A stretch of 48,404 nt of DNA, taken from Burkholderiales bacterium (GTDB taxonomy: Bacteria; Pseudomonadota; Gammaproteobacteria; Burkholderiales; Casimicrobiaceae). The notes beneath the pieces were generated by a model. It was not told where the DNA came from. It ran no database searches and worked only from the letters and a program-made list of their open reading frames with translations. Below are positions 39,848 through 48,167 of this stretch, one piece after another; the stretch's first letter is position 1; each line of letters begins with the position of its first letter. The translations under genes and the position numbers were made by a program. The DNA is taken from positions 1-48,404 of the forward strand of contig JANXNI010000037.1 in assembly GCA_025354165.1 (NCBI GenBank). The letters run 5' to 3'.

Positions 39848-39943
39848 ATTGTGCAATGCACACACGCGACAATGACGATGAGGCGTCGCGTGACAGTGCG
39901 CTATGCACGTGAACGGCACCCGAAAACTGTAAGGAGGAGTGAC

Positions 39944-42616
39944 ATGCAGAACCCATCAGGTCCGAGCGATCTTGACCCTAAAGAAACCAGTGACTGGCTC
40001 GATTCGCTCGATAGCGTGATCGCAAATGAAGGCTACGAACGCGCGCATTACCTGTTGGAGGCGCTGTTCGACAAAGCGCGTCGCACCGGTGGTAATGCGC
40101 CGTTCTCGCCCAACACCGCCTACCTGAACACTATCCCGACGCATCTGGAGGCGAAGAGCCCGGGCGACCATGAGATGGAGCACAAGCTGCGTAGCTACGT
40201 GCGCTGGAACGCGGCGATGATGGTGCTGCGCGGTGGCAAAAAAGATTTGGAACTGGGTGGTCACATTTCGTCATTCGCGTCCGCTGCGACGCTGTACGAC
40301 GTCGGCTTCAATCATTTCTGGCACGCGCCGTCCGCCGATCATGGTGGCGATCTGGTGTACGTTCAGGGTCACAGCTCGCCGGGCGTTTACGCACGCGCTT
40401 TCATGCTTGATCGGCTGTCGCAGGAACAGATGGATAACTTCCGCCAGGAGGTTGATGGCAAGGGCATTCCGAGCTATCCGCACCCGTGGCTGATGCCGGA
40501 CTTCTGGCAGATGCCAACCGTGTCGATGGGCCTCGGCCCGTTGATGGGTATTTATCAGGCGCGCTTCCTCAAATATTTGCATGCGCGCGGTCTCGCCAAC
40601 ACTGAAGGCCGCAAGGTCTGGGTGTTTTGTGGTGACGGCGAAATGGACGAACCGGAATCGCTCGGCGCGATCAGCATGGCGGGTCGCGAAAAGCTCGACA
40701 ACCTGGTGTTTGTTATCAACTGCAACTTGCAGCGGCTGGACGGACCCGTACGTGGCAACGGCAAGATCATTCAGGAGCTTGAAGGCGACTTCCGTGGCTC
40801 CGGCTGGAACGTGCTCAAGCTCATCTGGGGCGGCTATTGGGATCAACTGCTGGCGCGCGACAAAGACGGCCTGCTCGTCAAGCGCATGGAAGAAGTGGTC
40901 GATGGTGAATATCAGGTGATGAAGGCGCGCGACGGTGCTTACGTTCGCGAAAACTTCTTCGGCAAATATCCGCAGTTGCGCGAGATGGTTGCCAATATGT
41001 CGGACGACGACGTGTGGCGTTTGAACCGTGGCGGCCATGATCCGCACAAGATTTATGCGGCTTACGATTCGGCTGTTAAGCACAAGGGTCAGCCGACCGT
41101 GATCCTCGCCAAAACGGTGAAGGGCTATGGCATGGGCAATAGCGGCGAGGGCCTCAACATCGCGCATCAGGCCAAGAAGATGGATATCGAATCCTTGAAG
41201 CAGATGCGAGATCGCTTCGGCATTCCGGTCAAGGACGAAGACCTCGCGAGTTACCCGTATTACAAACCCGCTGCGGATTCGCCCGAGATCAAGTACATGC
41301 GTGGCCGTCGCGAGTCGCTTGGCGGCTATCTGCCACAGCGTCGTATGAAAAGCGTGTCGCTGCCAACGCCAGAACTCTCAGCGTTTGAGGCGCAACTCAA
41401 GGGCTCCGGCGAGCGCGAAATCTCGACCACGATGGCCTTCGTTCGTATTCTGAACACGCTGGTTAAAGACAAAAATATTGGCCGCAATGTCGTGCCTATC
41501 GTGCCAGATGAATCGCGCACTTTCGGCATGGAAGGCATGTTCCGCCAGCTCGGCATCTGGAACCAGCAGGGCCAGAACTACGCGCCGGTCGATGCCGACC
41601 AACTCATGTTCTACAAAGAGGCCAAAGACGGCCAGATTCTGCAGGAAGGCATCAACGAGCCCGGCGCAATGGCCGACTGGATCGCAGCGGCCACGAGCTA
41701 CAGCAATAACAACGTGCCGATGTTGCCGGTCTACATTTTCTATTCGATGTTTGGCGTGCAACGCATCGGCGATCTGTGCTGGGCAGCGGGTGACATGCGC
41801 GCGCGAGGCCTGCTCGTTGGCGGCACGGCTGGCCGCACCACATTGAACGGTGAAGGTCTGCAACACGAAGACGGTCACTCGCATGTGTGGTTCAGCGCGA
41901 TCCCGAACGTGCGCACGTACGACCCGACGTTCTCCTACGAAGTCGCCGTTATCACGCAGCACGCCGTGAAAGGCATGCTCACTGATCAGAAGGATGAGTA
42001 CTACTACCTGACCGTGATGAATGAAAATTACACGCATCCGGATATGCCGGTGGGTGCCGAGGCGAACATCATCAAAGGGATGTATCTGTTCAAAGAAGGC
42101 GGCAAGGACAAGAAAAAAGGCATGCGCGTTCAGCTCACCGGCTCGGGCACCATCTTCCGCGAAGTCATCGCTGCGGCGGATTTGCTGCGCGACGACTGGG
42201 GCGTTGAATCCGACATCTGGAGCGCACCTAGTTTCAACGAATTGCGTCGCGACGGCATCGATTGCGAACGCTGGAACCTGCTGCATCCAATGGACGAACC
42301 GCGCGTGCCGCACGTCGCGGCCTGCGTCAATTCGAAGGCAGGCCCGCTGATTGCCGCGACCGACTACATGCGTATTTACGCGGACAGTGTGCGTCCGTAC
42401 ATCAAGAAAACATTCAAGGTGCTCGGCACCGACGGCTTCGGTCGTTCGGACAGTCGTGACAACCTGCGGCGGTTCTTCGAAGTGAATCGTTTCTACGTCA
42501 CGCTCGCTGCGCTCACCGCGCTGGCGGAAGATGGCGTGATCGAGCGCAAGGTGCTCGCCGAGGCCATCAAAAAGTACGGCATCGATCCGAACAAACCCAA
42601 TCCAACAACGGTTTAA
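39944..42616 (+). CDS. aceE: Pyruvate dehydrogenase E1 component, homodimeric type
   Basis: 890 aa from the ATG at 39944, preceded by a strong AAGGAGGAG. It decarboxylates pyruvate with thiamine diphosphate and acetylates the lipoyl groups of E2. Visible: GGHISSFASAATLYDVGFNH, HSSPGVYARAF, the ThDP motif region VFCGDGEMDEPESLG ... NCNLQRLDGPV, and the C-terminal Rossmann-like domain ending KVLGTDGFGRSDSRDNLRRF. First gene of the aceE-aceF-lpdA operon: a 15-bp gap to aceF, then an aceF/lpdA overlap. The frame is open 31 codons upstream, but only the chosen ATG has a ribosome binding site. Confidence 0.97.
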   Translation: MQNPSGPSDLDPKETSDWLDSLDSVIANEGYERAHYLLEALFDKARRTGGNAPFSPNTAYLNTIPTHLEAKSPGDHEMEHKLRSYVRWNAAMMVLRGGKKDLELGGHISSFASAATLYDVGFNHFWHAPSADHGGDLVYVQGHSSPGVYARAFMLDRLSQEQMDNFRQEVDGKGIPSYPHPWLMPDFWQMPTVSMGLGPLMGIYQARFLKYLHARGLANTEGRKVWVFCGDGEMDEPESLGAISMAGREKLDNLVFVINCNLQRLDGPVRGNGKIIQELEGDFRGSGWNVLKLIWGGYWDQLLARDKDGLLVKRMEEVVDGEYQVMKARDGAYVRENFFGKYPQLREMVANMSDDDVWRLNRGGHDPHKIYAAYDSAVKHKGQPTVILAKTVKGYGMGNSGEGLNIAHQAKKMDIESLKQMRDRFGIPVKDEDLASYPYYKPAADSPEIKYMRGRRESLGGYLPQRRMKSVSLPTPELSAFEAQLKGSGEREISTTMAFVRILNTLVKDKNIGRNVVPIVPDESRTFGMEGMFRQLGIWNQQGQNYAPVDADQLMFYKEAKDGQILQEGINEPGAMADWIAAATSYSNNNVPMLPVYIFYSMFGVQRIGDLCWAAGDMRARGLLVGGTAGRTTLNGEGLQHEDGHSHVWFSAIPNVRTYDPTFSYEVAVITQHAVKGMLTDQKDEYYYLTVMNENYTHPDMPVGAEANIIKGMYLFKEGGKDKKKGMRVQLTGSGTIFREVIAAADLLRDDWGVESDIWSAPSFNELRRDGIDCERWNLLHPMDEPRVPHVAACVNSKAGPLIAATDYMRIYADSVRPYIKKTFKVLGTDGFGRSDSRDNLRRFFEVNRFYVTLAALTALAEDGVIERKVLAEAIKKYGIDPNKPNPTTV

Positions 42617-42631
42617 GGAGCGGGAAAGATC

Positions 42632-44287
42632 ATGGCAAAGCAAGAATTGAAAGTCCCGGACGTCGGTGACTACAAAGATATTCCGGTCATCGAAATATTG
42701 GTGAAAGTTGGCGACGTCGTGGCGAAGGAGCAATCGCTCGTCACCCTCGAATCCGACAAGGCCACGATGGAGGTGCCCGCCGACACGGCGGGTACGGTGG
42801 TCGAACTGCGCGTAAAGTTGGGCGACAAGGTCAGCGAAGGCACAGTGGTGGCAGTGATTGATACGGGCGCTTCGGCCCCTGCGGCAGGTCTAGCGCCGCA
42901 ACCTGAACCCGCAAAAGCGGCGGCGGCGCCAGCACCTGCGGCTGGCGGTGGTGCGGTCGATGTGAAGGTGCCCGATATAGGCGACTACAAAGACATTCCT
43001 GTTATCGAAATCCTAGTGAAAATCGGCGACACGGTCAAAGTCGAACAGTCCCTCGTGACGCTCGAATCAGACAAGGCGACGATGGAGGTTCCGTCGTCAG
43101 TGGCGGGCGTTGTCAAGGCGATCAAAGTGAGTCTCGGCGACAAAGTTTCCGAGGGCTCGGTCGTTGTAGTGGTTGAATCGGTGGGTGCTACAAGCGCTGC
43201 TAGTTCGACCCCATCTCCCCTCGCGGGAGAGGGCGGGGGTGAGGGGGCTGGGGGCATAAAAGCCACAGTAGCTGGTCCGCCACCGTCACCCTCACCCCAA
43301 CCCTCTCCCGTCAAGGGAGAGGGGGCAAACCCCGCGCCCACGGGTGCCATCAACGAAGCTAATTTCAGTAAAGCGCACGCCTCGCCATCGATCCGAAAGA
43401 TTGCGCGCGAACTTGGCGTGGATTTGGGGCGAGTGAAACCCACAGGCCCAAAAAACCGCGTCATGCTTGAAGACGTCCGCGCGTTCGTGAAAGGCGTGAT
43501 GAGTGCGCTTCCGACCGCTGCAACTGGCGTGGGTGGTGGCGATAGTGGCGCTGCGCTTGGCTTGTTGCCGTGGCCAAAAGTGGATTTCGCGAAGTTCGGC
43601 GCGATAGAAGCCAAACCGCTGTCACGCATCAAGAAAATCTCGGGCGCGAATTTGCATCGCAACTGGGTGATGATTCCGCACGTCACCAATCACGACGAAT
43701 GCGATATCACCGATCTCGAAGCGCTGCGTGTGCAGCTCAACACTGAGAATGCGAAGTCGGGTACCAAGGTCACGATGCTCGCATTCGTGATCAAAGCCTG
43801 TGTCGCTGCGTTGCAAAAGTTCCCGGATTTCAACGCATCGCTCGACGGTGACAACCTCGTCTACAAGAAGTATTTCAACATAGGCTTCGCGGCCGACACG
43901 CCGAACGGGCTCGTCGTTCCAGTCTTAAAAAATGCCGATCAAAAAGGCATCATGCAGATCGCCAAAGAGATGGGTGAACTTTCGCTCAAGGCGCGTGAAG
44001 GCAAGCTCGGCCCGGCCGACATGCAGGGCGGCTGCTTCTCGATCAGCTCGCTCGGCGGCATTGGCGGCACGGCGTTTTCGCCCATCATCAACGCGCCGGA
44101 AGTAGCGATCCTTGGGCTGTCGCGCGGCGAAATCAAGCCTAAATGGAATGGCAAAGAGTTCACACCCAAGCTCATGTTGCCGCTGTCGCTGTCGTACGAT
44201 CATCGCGTCATCGATGGTGCAACGGCTGCGCGATTCAACGCGTATCTCGGCTCGTTGCTCTCGGATTTCCGCAGGGTGGCGCTATGA
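42632..44287 (+). CDS. aceF: Pyruvate dehydrogenase E2, dihydrolipoyl acetyltransferase
   Basis: 551 aa, the core of the complex. Domains: lipoyl 1 about 2-78 (lipoylated Lys43 in ESDKATMEVP), Ala/Pro linker, lipoyl 2 about 109-185 (Lys148), a linker containing a translated palindromic repeat (195-232), peripheral-subunit-binding domain about 248-288 (SPSIRKIARELGVDLGRVKP), second linker, and acetyltransferase domain about 315-551 with the catalytic motif HRVIDG (His524, Asp528). Two lipoyl domains are normal for Betaproteobacteria. The final ATGA overlaps the lpdA start, so expression is coupled. Confidence 0.97.
   Translation: MAKQELKVPDVGDYKDIPVIEILVKVGDVVAKEQSLVTLESDKATMEVPADTAGTVVELRVKLGDKVSEGTVVAVIDTGASAPAAGLAPQPEPAKAAAAPAPAAGGGAVDVKVPDIGDYKDIPVIEILVKIGDTVKVEQSLVTLESDKATMEVPSSVAGVVKAIKVSLGDKVSEGSVVVVVESVGATSAASSTPSPLAGEGGGEGAGGIKATVAGPPPSPSPQPSPVKGEGANPAPTGAINEANFSKAHASPSIRKIARELGVDLGRVKPTGPKNRVMLEDVRAFVKGVMSALPTAATGVGGGDSGAALGLLPWPKVDFAKFGAIEAKPLSRIKKISGANLHRNWVMIPHVTNHDECDITDLEALRVQLNTENAKSGTKVTMLAFVIKACVAALQKFPDFNASLDGDNLVYKKYFNIGFAADTPNGLVVPVLKNADQKGIMQIAKEMGELSLKAREGKLGPADMQGGCFSISSLGGIGGTAFSPIINAPEVAILGLSRGEIKPKWNGKEFTPKLMLPLSLSYDHRVIDGATAARFNAYLGSLLSDFRRVAL
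43214..43327. repeat. Palindromic repeat translated within the aceF linker
   Basis: CGGGAGAGGGCGGGGGTGAG (plus GG) on the left pairs with CCCTCACCCCAACCCTCTCC (plus CG) on the right, a stem of about 22 bp with some 50 nt between. Translated in frame as SPLAGEGGGEGAGG ... PSPSPQPSPVKGEGA. The same element lies in lpdA (44539-44652). This type of CCCTCACCCCAACCCTCTCC sequence is a well-known dispersed intergenic palindrome in Betaproteobacteria; here it is coding. Confidence 0.85.
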
Positions 44288-46116
44288 GTCAGGTTGAACT
44301 CAAAGTCCCCGATATCGGCGATTTCAAAGACATTCCCGTCATTGAAATTCTAGTGAAAGTGGGCGACACCGTTGCGCTTGAGCAATCCGTCGTCACACTC
44401 GAATCCGACAAAGCCACGATGGAAGTGCCTGCCGATACAGCGGGCGTCGTGAAGGAAATTCGCGTCAAACTCGGCGATAAGGTGTCGCAGGGCGTGGTGG
44501 TTGCCGTCATCGAGGCGGCGGCTGCCGGTTCTGCTCCCTCTCTCCTCGCGGGAGCGGGCGGGGGTGAGGGGGCTGGTGGCGTCAAGGCCAACGCGGTTAC
44601 TCCGCAACCGTCACCCTCACCCCAACCCTCTCCCGTCAAGGGAGAGGGGGCCAAACCAGCAAGCGCTTACGCGGGCAAAGCCGACATCGAATGTGAAATG
44701 CTCGTACTCGGCGCGGGTCCCGGTGGCTATAGCGCCGCTTTTCGGTCCGCTGACCTTGGCATGAAGACTGTACTCATCGAGCGCTACGCCACGCTCGGTG
44801 GCGTGTGCCTCAACGTCGGTTGCATTCCATCCAAAGCGCTGTTGCACACTGCTGCCGTAATGGAAGAAGTCAAAGCGCTCGGCAAACACGGCATCAGCTA
44901 CGGCGAACCGACGATTGAAATTGGCAAGCTGCGCGAGTTCAAAGAAGGCGTGATCAAAAAACTCACCGGTGGCCTCGCGGGCATGGCGAAGGCGCGCAAA
45001 GTGGACGTCGTGCGTGGTGTCGGGAAATTCCTCGACGCCAATCATGTCGAAGTTGAAATGACGAGCGGCACATCGTGGGACATGACGGGCGAGAAAAAAG
45101 TCGTCAAGTTCCAGAAGTGCGTCATCGCCGCGGGCTCGCAGGCCGTGAAGCTCCCCTTCATGCCGGAAGACCCGCGCGTGGTGGACTCCACGGGTGCGCT
45201 GCTGCTCAACGTCAAACCCGACCGCATGCTGGTGATCGGCGGCGGCATCATCGGCCTTGAAATGGCCACGGTGTACTCGTCGCTCGGCGCACGCATTGAC
45301 GTCGTTGAGATGCTCGATCACGTGATGGCTGGCGCAGATCGCGACCTCGTTAAAGTGTGGGAAAAGCACAATGCGCCGCGCTTCGACAACATGATGTTGA
45401 AGACGAAAACGGTGAGCGCTGAGGCGAAACCCGACGGCATCTACGTCAAATTTGAAGGCGAAAAGGCACCTGCAGAAGCGCAGCGCTACGACTTCGTGCT
45501 GGTCGCCGTCGGTCGCTCACCGAACGGTAAAAAGATCAACGCCGAAGCAGCAGGCGTCGCCGTTACGGATCGTGGCTTCATCAACGTTGACAAGCAAATG
45601 CGCACCAATGTGCCGCACATCTTCGCCATCGGTGACATTATCGGCAACCCGATGCTCGCGCACAAAGCCGTGCACGAAGGTCACGTCGCCGCCGAAGCCG
45701 CGCATGGTGAAAAGGCGTACTTCGACGCGCGCCAGATTCCAAGCGTCGCCTACACCGATCCCGAGGTAGCCTGGGCTGGCAAAACCGAAGACGAATGCAA
45801 GGCGCAGGGCATCAAGTACTCAGTTGGCAAGTTCCCGTGGGCGGCAAGTGGTCGCGCGATTGCGAACGGTCGCGATGAAGGCTTCACCAAGCTCATCTTC
45901 GATGACGAATCGCATCGCATCATCGGCGGCGGCATCGTCGGCACCCATGCGGGGGATTTAATTGGCGAGGTTTGTCTAGCCGTCGAGATGGGCGCAGACG
46001 CAGTAGACATCGGCAAGACGATCCACCCGCATCCGACACTCGGTGAATCGGTGGGAATGGCAGCGGAGATATGGGAAGGGGTTTGCACGGACGTGCCGCC
46101 CGCTAGGAAGAAGTGA
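44284..46116 (+). CDS. lpdA: Dihydrolipoyl dehydrogenase with N-terminal lipoyl domain (E3)
   Basis: 610 aa. It reoxidises dihydrolipoamide with NAD+. N-terminal lipoyl domain 2-78 (Lys43 in ESDKATMEVP), a linker with the translated palindromic repeat (86-123), then the flavoprotein disulfide reductase: FAD motif VLGAGPGGYSAAF, redox disulfide Cys175/Cys180 in GGVCLNVGCIPSKALLH, NAD motif VIGGGIIGLEMATVY, second FAD motif IFAIGDIIG and the dimer-interface His583/Glu588 in HPHPTLGES. The fused lipoyl domain is typical of Neisseria/Burkholderiales-type complexes. The ATG overlaps the aceF stop. About 47 further in-frame codons upstream belong to aceF, not to this protein. Confidence 0.97.
   Translation: MSQVELKVPDIGDFKDIPVIEILVKVGDTVALEQSVVTLESDKATMEVPADTAGVVKEIRVKLGDKVSQGVVVAVIEAAAAGSAPSLLAGAGGGEGAGGVKANAVTPQPSPSPQPSPVKGEGAKPASAYAGKADIECEMLVLGAGPGGYSAAFRSADLGMKTVLIERYATLGGVCLNVGCIPSKALLHTAAVMEEVKALGKHGISYGEPTIEIGKLREFKEGVIKKLTGGLAGMAKARKVDVVRGVGKFLDANHVEVEMTSGTSWDMTGEKKVVKFQKCVIAAGSQAVKLPFMPEDPRVVDSTGALLLNVKPDRMLVIGGGIIGLEMATVYSSLGARIDVVEMLDHVMAGADRDLVKVWEKHNAPRFDNMMLKTKTVSAEAKPDGIYVKFEGEKAPAEAQRYDFVLVAVGRSPNGKKINAEAAGVAVTDRGFINVDKQMRTNVPHIFAIGDIIGNPMLAHKAVHEGHVAAEAAHGEKAYFDARQIPSVAYTDPEVAWAGKTEDECKAQGIKYSVGKFPWAASGRAIANGRDEGFTKLIFDDESHRIIGGGIVGTHAGDLIGEVCLAVEMGADAVDIGKTIHPHPTLGESVGMAAEIWEGVCTDVPPARKK
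44539..44652. repeat. Palindromic repeat translated within the lpdA linker
   Basis: It aligns without gaps to 43214-43327: by eye 15 differences in 114 positions, most of them in the central 35 nt. The right-hand 43 nt before the last base are identical. It is translated as SLLAGAGGGEGAGG ... PSPSPQPSPVKGEGA. Confidence 0.85.
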
Positions 46117-46639: not shown

Positions 46640-47095
46640 CTAATGACGATTGAGGACAGGCGCGCCCTCGTTTGCCGCAGAGTGTGCGACTTGCGGCCCG
46701 AGGATTGGATCGGCTTCGATGTGAAATACGCCTTCGCAGCCGCCGGAGACGACGCGTTTGAGCAATACATCCATGCTGCGTTCGCGATACGTGATGGCGC
46801 GTACAAGCATCGGCACGTTGGCACCGGCGACGGCCTCGACGTGTCCGCTGACCAATAGTTTGCACGCGAGGTTTGACGGACTGGAGCCGAAGATGTCGGT
46901 GATGATGAGTACGCCGCTGCCGTCGTCGAGCGCGTTGACCATGCGCTGGGCGGAGGGCATGAGTTCGCGCGGCGAATCGGTGCCCGCAACCTGAATGGCG
47001 GCGATGCCGTCAGGCTTTTTGCCGAGCACGTGGGTCATGCACTGAATCAGTGAATCACCGAAATTTCCGTGCGCAATAATGAGAATGCCGATCAA
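46640..47095 (-). CDS. PTS EIIA component, mannose/fructose (EIIA-Man) family
   Basis: 151 aa. The N-terminal IGILIIAHGNFGDSLIQCM carries the phosphorylated His9. VLIITDIFGSSPSNLACKLL is the conserved second motif. It is a stand-alone EIIA without EIIB/C partners, cotranscribed with ptsH. In Proteobacteria such orphan EIIA-Man proteins work in regulatory phosphorelays linking PEP status to gene expression rather than sugar uptake. The 127-bp gap to gshB may hold a promoter for this pair. Confidence 0.94.
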   Translation of the reverse strand: MIGILIIAHGNFGDSLIQCMTHVLGKKPDGIAAIQVAGTDSPRELMPSAQRMVNALDDGSGVLIITDIFGSSPSNLACKLLVSGHVEAVAGANVPMLVRAITYRERSMDVLLKRVVSGGCEGVFHIEADPILGPQVAHSAANEGAPVLNRH

Positions 47096-47222: not shown

Positions 47223-48167
47223 TTAGGGGCCGACGACTGACTCTAATTTGCGTATAAACAAATCCGCCACGTCAAAACCGGTCTGCGCCTTGATCTCCAC
47301 GAAACCGGTCGGGCTGGTCACATTGATCTCGGTGACTTTGTCGCCAATCACGTCGAGACCCACAAGGAACAAGCCTTCCGCCCATAATCGCTTGGCCATC
47401 GTTTCCGCGATGCGCTTGTCGGATTCGCTGAACGGGCGCGCTTCGGGGCGACCACCAGCGGCCATATTGCCGCGCGTCTCGCCAATCATAGGAATACGGG
47501 CAAGGGCAAACGGCACGACTTCGCCTGCAATCAGAAGAATCCGTTTATCGCCGTCGACAATTTCCGGCAAATAGCGCTGCGCCATCATGCTCTGCGTGCC
47601 AAGCTGCGTCAGGGTTTCGATGATGACGTTCAGGTTGGCGTCATTCTCGCGCACGCGGAAAATACCGCTACCGCCCATGCCGTCGAGCGGTTTGAAGATG
47701 GCGTCCTTGTGCTCAGCGACAAATTGCTTGAGCACTTCTGCCGAGCGGGTGACCACGGTGGGCGCGATCATGTCGGAATGCTTGAGGATCGCCATTTTTT
47801 CGTTGTTGTCGCGGATCGCACCTGGGCGATTGAACACCCGAGCACCCTGATCGCAGGCGCGCTCGAAAAGATAGGTGTGATAGACGTATTCCATGTCGAA
47901 CGGCGGATCCTTGCGTTCGATCACCGCGTCGAATTCGGATAAGGGCGTCACCGGTACGGCGTGGGCTTCGTACCACTGGCTGTCGTCGTTGTTGACGGTC
48001 AGTTGCAGGGGGTTGGCCTGCACGACGCCATTGCGGCTGAATACATTGCCCGGCTCAATGGCGAACAAACTGTGACCACGGGCCTGGGCGGCGCGCATCA
48101 TGGCGACAGAGGTGTCTTTGTACGCCTTTAGTTTGGCGAGGAGGTCAAGGTGAAATGCAATCTTCAT
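47223..48167 (-). CDS. gshB: Glutathione synthetase
   Basis: 314 aa. ATP-grasp ligase joining gamma-glutamylcysteine and glycine. Motifs: DAVIERKDPPFDMEYVYHTY, NRPGAIRDNNEKMAILKHSD, the ATP-grasp loop FKPLDGMGGSGIFRV, MAQRYLPEIVDGDKRILLI, GETRGNMAAGGRPEARP and the C-terminal GLDVIGDKVTEINVTSPTGF. Same strand as and upstream of EIIA-Man/ptsH, the order usual in Betaproteobacteria. Confidence 0.97.
   Translation of the reverse strand: MKIAFHLDLLAKLKAYKDTSVAMMRAAQARGHSLFAIEPGNVFSRNGVVQANPLQLTVNNDDSQWYEAHAVPVTPLSEFDAVIERKDPPFDMEYVYHTYLFERACDQGARVFNRPGAIRDNNEKMAILKHSDMIAPTVVTRSAEVLKQFVAEHKDAIFKPLDGMGGSGIFRVRENDANLNVIIETLTQLGTQSMMAQRYLPEIVDGDKRILLIAGEVVPFALARIPMIGETRGNMAAGGRPEARPFSESDKRIAETMAKRLWAEGLFLVGLDVIGDKVTEINVTSPTGFVEIKAQTGFDVADLFIRKLESVVGP

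Follow-up and report, generated by a model that had tools for sequence, protein, structure and literature searches.

In-frame palindromic repeats, of the TM type and others, in the linkers of two pyruvate dehydrogenase subunits of a Burkholderiales bacterium and its relatives

The window analysed here, a stretch of 48,404 nucleotides (nt) from a Burkholderiales bacterium of the Casimicrobiaceae (contig JANXNI010000037.1, assembly GCA_025354165.1), was found to contain aceF, encoding the pyruvate dehydrogenase (PDH) E2 subunit, followed by lpdA, in which a lipoyl domain is fused to dihydrolipoamide dehydrogenase (E3). Pfam placed two lipoyl domains, an E3-binding domain and a catalytic domain in aceF, and the ATG of lpdA overlaps the aceF stop codon. 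The last linker of aceF and the linker of lpdA each contained, in frame, one 114-nt copy of a palindromic repeat (Table 1), as a preliminary description of this DNA had claimed, and both genes are supported by Pfam. Each copy is an inverted dimer, in which a half with a short G+C-rich hairpin is followed by a spacer and an inverted half. The encoded peptide was PSPLAGEGGGEGAGG...PSPSPQPSPVKGE in aceF and PSLLAGAGGGEGAGG...PSPSPQPSPVKGE in lpdA. Linker 1 of aceF was an ordinary Ala/Pro linker in which no repeat was seen (predicted RNA fold z 0.03 at 42870-42985).

Table 1. Features of the aceF-lpdA region, in window positions (aa, amino acids; ORF, open reading frame).
Feature	Position	Strand	Basis
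aceF, pyruvate dehydrogenase E2	42632..44287	+	ORF; Pfam PF00364 x2, PF02817, PF00198
aceF linker 1, 34 aa, joining the two lipoyl domains	42860..42961	+	peptide and DNA reading
aceF last linker, 64 aa, repeat inside	43175..43366	+	peptide and DNA reading
Repeat copy 1, TM-type inverted dimer, in aceF linker	43211..43324	+	core matches, alignment
Copy 1, left half	43211-43248		
Copy 1, spacer	43249-43285		
Copy 1, right half	43286-43324		
lpdA, lipoyl domain fused to dihydrolipoamide dehydrogenase (E3)	44284..46116	+	Pfam PF00364, PF07992, PF02852 on 44287-46113
lpdA linker, 57 aa, repeat inside	44512..44682	+	peptide and DNA reading
Repeat copy 2, in lpdA linker	44536..44649	+	core matches, alignment
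Copy 2, left half	44536-44573		
Copy 2, spacer	44574-44610		
Copy 2, right half	44611-44649		

The two copies aligned without gaps and were identical at 99 of 114 positions. The 15 differences and the identical run of 43 nt at the right side, both given in the preliminary description, were reproduced by the alignment. The left halves differed at 3/38 positions, the spacers at 12/37 and the right halves at 0/39. The identity ended at the edges of the element, extending 0 nt to the left and 2 nt to the right. Synonymous changes were found in 3 of 29 same-residue codons inside the element, versus 31 of 56 between the second lipoyl domain of aceF and the lipoyl domain of lpdA (Fisher p 5e-5); the neighbouring domains are thus more diverged, as had been noticed by eye. 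A 20-nt core of the repeat matched four times in the window at ≤3 mismatches and in none of 100 shuffles, so a chance origin is not expected. The palindromic stems of both linkers exceeded codon-shuffled controls (p 0.01 each), in a test that misses the B-type linkers described below and that flagged one ordinary linker (L146). PDH linkers are of low complexity and highly variable among relatives, which would favour an ordinary Ala/Pro linker resembling the repeat by chance or codon bias; the shuffles, the stems and the 64 genomic places of the repeat refute this explanation, and we give it practically no weight.

Read on the minus strand, the right halves of the two copies agree by eye with the entries for the TM (TMECO) triplex motif in Table 1 of Holder et al. 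(2015; PMC4666352), and the left halves show, also by eye, a few changes relative to the motif. The motif is written there as CCCTCTCCC-loop-GGGAGAGGG-NN-GGGGTGAGGG and, in the sections of that paper used here, is described in many copies and inverted pairs from more than 260 genomes. In the genome of the window (G000), 74 TM matches were found at ≤2 mismatches, grouped by script into 64 places, and some of them form pairs about 65 bp apart. Judged by its letters, the repeat belongs to the TM triplex motif described in Escherichia coli, which it resembles in sequence pattern, high copy number and inverted pairs. For a miniature inverted-repeat transposable element, terminal inverted repeats with a target-site duplication would be expected; inverted halves are present, and the linker sequence around them has diverged too far for a target duplication to be recognised. 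In E. coli MG1655 the motif is intergenic without exception, according to the same sections (PMC4666352). This location, a description of E. coli rather than a sequence criterion, does not hold in G000, where copies lie also in frame within conserved genes, namely the two with PDH linkers and about ten more (12/64 places together); the expectation that the repeat is normally intergenic was therefore not borne out.

For this survey, 58 stretches around the matches outside the window were translated and open frames of ≥180 codons were considered; 20 in-frame candidate proteins were scanned with Pfam, and 10 of these with NCBIfam. Besides aceF and lpdA, the host families were IcmF, urease alpha (ureC), acyl-CoA dehydrogenase, Nnr/YjeF, a HODM-like protein, QueG, a hydantoinase fusion, LeuS, DnaX and an Lhr-type helicase. 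In these ten proteins the repeat lay within, between or immediately ahead of domains, the last being the case in the HODM-like protein, where it immediately precedes the matched part. Compared with solved homologues, urease alpha (L014) contained an additional repeat segment of about 20 aa, LeuS (L041) one of about 35 aa, and IcmF a net extra of about 10 aa. In QueG the structural match starts only past the repeat, and the case rests on Pfam and NCBIfam, according to which the matched domain exceeds the length of its profile by about 20 aa. The stop-poor CCAACC form, without the CTAA/CTAG stop trap, was present in 10 of the 12 conserved-gene places versus 7 of the 52 others (Fisher p 7e-6), as expected if the conserved-gene copies are translated. 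Further in-frame copies are counted outside the 12: those of L012, L027, L045, L046, L047 and L052 lie near the start codon, that of L037 follows the only domain, and L013, L054 and the minus-strand frame of L040 have no Pfam domain; the open frames of L039, L044, L049 and L056 stood outside the domain scans and likewise outside the 12. In the related genome G015, a TM repeat was found in frame at about codon 452 of a 661-codon open frame (L247, G015:C260), which we take to encode isoleucyl-tRNA synthetase; in-frame TM copies thus extend beyond the genome of the window.

The linkers were compared in a genus set of 17 genomes (G000-G016), of which 16 contained a PDH aceF; G006, in which none was found, is left out of the linker counts. 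Five families of repeat were labelled by eye: A is TM, B reads VRAEPVEA...STSSVRTE, C reads SPPPPGGEGLGERV...PSPQPSPPGGGS, D reads RGEPVEPQRQ...AHGSTGSQRTE, and E is TM-like, with hairpins visible in the DNA of G016. By sequence, C and E are similar to A, and D is similar to B, which gives at least two unrelated repeat superfamilies in PDH linkers, A/C/E and B/D. The type C letters CCCTCTCCCCAACCCTCCCCC were also matched exactly by the repeat in the DnaX tau linker (L065, G000:C96). In the aceF last linker and the lpdA linker, respectively, the families were A/A in G000 and G001, B/B in G003, A/C in G004, D/D in G007, C/C in G011, B/C in G015 and E/E in G016; G005 and G012 were ordinary/B, and G002, G008, G009, G010, G013 and G014 were ordinary in both. 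The lpdA of G012 is that of record JAPUER010000042.1; L129 and L318 were identical over 1500 bases. Linker 1 of aceF, read in eight genomes, contained B in G001, C in G004 and an ordinary linker in the other six. Repeat-encoded linkers were thus present in 10 of the 16 genomes, in the aceF last linker of eight and in the lpdA linker of ten. The inherited-linker alternative named in the preliminary description does not hold, as relatives differ in carriage and many G000 copies lie outside PDH genes.

The sucB-type E2 of the sibling 2-oxoglutarate complex served as a matched negative control. Its linkers looked ordinary in all 13 genomes read, with no repeat seen (0/13; Fisher p 0.003 against the aceF last linker and 0.0004 against lpdA, uncorrected for kinship); the count excludes L114, which is another E2 type, and G003, G008, G011 and G014. 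Ordinary aceF last linkers were 48-60 aa long (6 genomes) and repeat-bearing ones 60-67 aa (6 genomes); for lpdA the ranges were 40-47 aa (5 genomes) and 49-64 aa (9 genomes). The A element comprises 38 aa and the B element 34 aa, yet linkers with a repeat exceeded ordinary linkers by only about 10-14 aa; the old linker therefore seems to have been lost for the most part. In the tree of the E2 catalytic domain, G000, G001, G003, G004 and G008 formed one clade (100/100), with an inner order mostly unresolved.

The linker segments are probably a translated mobile palindromic repeat, in the window the TM inverted dimer, that was captured as E2 and E3 linker and then spread between the linker slots. 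We found a multi-copy family whose copies lie in frame in the two linkers as well as within further conserved genes, and the same linkers of related species hold other repeats. The multi-copy family and the linker readings also support the earlier suggestion of a mobile-type repeat that reads as a Gly/Pro/Ser linker. If, instead, each linker was hit separately by the active family of its genome and the insertions were tolerated by the flexible linkers, the linker family should follow abundance, and in several species it does. Matches to A numbered 74-143 in G000, G001, G004, G006, G011 and G015 and ≤23 elsewhere; matches to B/D numbered 205 in G011, 122 in G015, 40-50 in G001, G003, G005 and G007 and ≤25 elsewhere; matches to C numbered 61 in G011, 33 in G015, 20 in G001, 11 in G012, 10 in G004 and ≤5 elsewhere. 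The linker family was mostly one with ≥10 matches in its genome, and not always the commonest. Both linkers of G011 are C although B/D (205) outnumbers C (61), and the lpdA linker of G015 is C although A (143) and B/D (122) outnumber C (33), counts in which the A and C search patterns overlap at the mismatch levels used. Independent insertion alone is also favoured by the in-frame copies in other genes of the same genome; the repeat-free sucB linkers, which are linkers of the same kind, argue against it.

Signs of spread came from relatives. The E2 last linker and E3 carried the same family in six of the eight genomes with a repeat in both (permutation mean 1.6, p 0.002; mean 2.0 and p 0.005 when B and D are counted as one family). 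Six B-type linker elements, from five species and from E2 linker 1, the E2 last linker and E3, were all 102 nt long with a 54-nt spacer. The 12 non-linker B pairs, drawn from 30 loci of 208 matches in three genomes, measured 69-93 nt (seven from G015 and five from G001). Spacer identity was 0.53-0.76 among the linkers, and no linker spacer exceeded 0.54 with that of a non-linker pair. In G005, four B/D pairs had start distances of 49, 51, 53 and 72, versus 78 in linkers; the linker form CGTTCGCGCTGAGCCCGTCGAA was present in only one of its 49 B/D matches, that of the lpdA linker, and in G001 it occurred also outside PDH. By length and spacer, the B-type linker copies form a lineage of their own. 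A 28-nt palindrome nested in the type C repeat of aceF linker 1 of G004 (L286 1470-1640) was shared with the lpdA linker; the two exact copies were the only ones in that genome at ≤3 mismatches, and G001 had three matches elsewhere with 2-3 mismatches. Such an exclusive composite, like the six equal-length B elements in three slots, argues against separate insertions, which we regard as unlikely to account for the linkers alone. In the A family, the left-half linker variant was mostly limited to linkers in G000, G001 and G004: its form CCCTCACCCCCGCCCTCTCCC had one exact site in G000 and one in G004, each in the aceF linker, and three in G001, of which two are PDH linkers. These comparisons among relatives support a general process of copying from one linker to another.

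Several points weigh against capture followed by spread. G004 and G015 carry different families in the E2 last linker and in E3, which speaks for independent insertions. Part of the length conservation of B is forced by the reading frame, and no non-linker B pair was found among the six G003 loci outside PDH or obtained from G003 or G012. Outside PDH, G001, G006, G011 and G015 each have a single exact copy of the A linker variant, and G016 has two. The A spacers of linkers were just somewhat nearer to each other (mean 0.68, n 10) than to those of other G000 copies (mean 0.57, n 85; best 0.74). A four-way site test between the two copies of G000 and those of G001 gave almost no informative sites, with 0 for copying within a genome, 0 for orthology and 1 cross. 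The family labels and the ordinary state of the sucB linkers were judged by eye, most genomes are fragmented and some are incomplete (G004 87%, G003 85%, G015 80%), and the statistics ignore kinship among species that are not independent.

Recent gene conversion between aceF and lpdA in the genome of the window had been suggested as the source of their match. It would agree with the lower synonymous divergence inside the element and with the left-half variant, of which aceF holds the one exact G000 copy and from which the lpdA copy is one base off. However, the 43-nt identity consists mostly of the conserved half of the family, of which 40 nt recur at a third G000 locus (L013), the spacers differ at 12/37 positions, and the identity ends at the element edges. 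Moreover, the lpdA copy of G001 was nearer to both G000 copies (102/113 and 102/114) than these are to each other (99/114). Recent conversion in G000 is thus not shown, and we consider it unlikely as the cause of the 87% match; copying between E2 and E3 in this genome is possible, not proven. Of the earlier suggestion, the part that stands is copying between linkers in relatives, and the first interpretation as a whole is partly supported.

The hairpins proposed earlier for the operon mRNA are borne out by prediction. Each copy is predicted to fold into a single long hairpin, with energies of -83.6 and -86.5 kcal/mol and z scores of -7.4 and -7.6, whereas an Ala/Pro linker of G008 had z -1.6. 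The repeat might accordingly be retained because of a structure in the nucleic acid, either a hairpin of the mRNA or a triplex of the DNA, that slows translation or tunes the E2:E3 output, and TM oligonucleotides are described as forming triplexes in vitro (PMC4666352). Against this role, any palindrome yields structure automatically, repeats unlike in sequence replace each other, and no repeat was found in the linkers read of 6 of the 16 genomes. An effect of the predicted hairpins on translation is possible; we think it very unlikely that structure is what keeps the repeat. An Rfam search of the window gave 26 matches up to E 1, none reaching its gathering score; the weak matches, miRNA-type on the long hairpins and one to COG3860 at 42882-42942, were rejected.

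Elsewhere in the window, the open frame 39851-42616 before aceF presumably encodes PDH E1. The minus-strand open frames 46640-47095 and 47223-48167, which we take to encode a phosphotransferase system (PTS) EIIA-type protein and glutathione synthetase, showed nothing unusual.

Beyond the genus, one scan covered 80 named loci, of which four are genus members (L127, L128, L129, L131) and 76 are others. Twelve TM-looking lpdA linkers were picked from the 76 and their DNA was read (L130, L133, L134, L137, L138, L141, L142, L143, L149, L152, L173, L187); L138 is a weak case, and L177 is among further TM-looking loci outside the 12. The stem exceeded codon-shuffled controls in ten of the 12. In 11 of their genomes (all except that of L138), TM core counts were 22-75 in ten and 1 in L173, versus 0, 0, 0 and 1 in four chosen controls with ordinary linkers. 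The records with a TM-type lpdA linker include Dyella, Rhodanobacter, Pseudorhodoferax, Variovorax and Sulfuritalea. Those of L130, L133, L134, L149, L152 and L187 belong to Dyella, Rhodanobacter and a metagenome-assembled genome of the Lysobacterales, which are distant from the genus and perhaps represent separate captures.

In-frame palindromic elements as such are already known. Rickettsia palindromic elements (RPE) are palindromic repeats of about 150 bp found in frame in unrelated genes (PMC10969869, PMC3733652). The present repeat is similarly inserted in conserved genes with the frame kept open, a likeness of description, in another organism, and not of sequence; in contrast to RPE, several families here occupy the same linker slots and have apparently been copied among them. 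Intragenic repetitive extragenic palindromes (REPs) of the GTAG/CGTC type lie within ORFs, for which flexible linkers or loops were named as possible sites (Di Nocera, 2013; PMC3733652); the sections of that paper used here do not name PDH linkers as targets. Its terminal inverted repeat motif GGGGWSAS fits GGGGTGAG, which is a resemblance only. Mobilisation by a RAYT/TIRYT transposase was rejected, and no mobilising enzyme was found: the sole Y1-type match in G000 (L067, G000:C58:14400-14648) contained an internal stop and no TM repeat nearby, and the TM core adjoined none of 30 Y1_Tnp loci (of 44 matches in the 17 genomes; flanks ≤1.5 kb, less at contig ends), one of which (L292) contained a B/D repeat. 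A literature search limited to open-licence papers found neither the letters of the B-type repeat nor any account of PDH linkers that had repeatedly captured several families of repeat and showed signs of movement from linker to linker.

In the mechanism that we propose for capture and spread, a repeat would enter the PDH linkers rarely and would be tolerated because its stop-poor form reads as a flexible Gly/Pro/Ser peptide able to replace an Ala/Pro linker. Most of the old linker would then be lost, and recombination may copy the cassette among the three linker slots, a step that similar lipoyl modules nearby or the repeat itself could assist. A broader reading, which we offer tentatively and hold to be possible rather than likely, is that the PDH operon repeatedly serves as a capture site, in which any palindromic repeat that is abundant could be domesticated into a translated linker cassette and cassettes could move between E2 and E3 slots and between species, so that these linkers would evolve by cassette exchange and not by point mutation. 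In-frame palindromic elements are best known as scattered insertions in Rickettsia; here the capture is repeated at the same slots of one central enzyme complex, in free-living relatives, with a sibling complex as control. Mobile, junk-like repeats would thus become parts of proteins, with different repeat families in different species, and the linkers may offer a countable natural experiment on how mobile DNA turns into protein and on what a linker requires.

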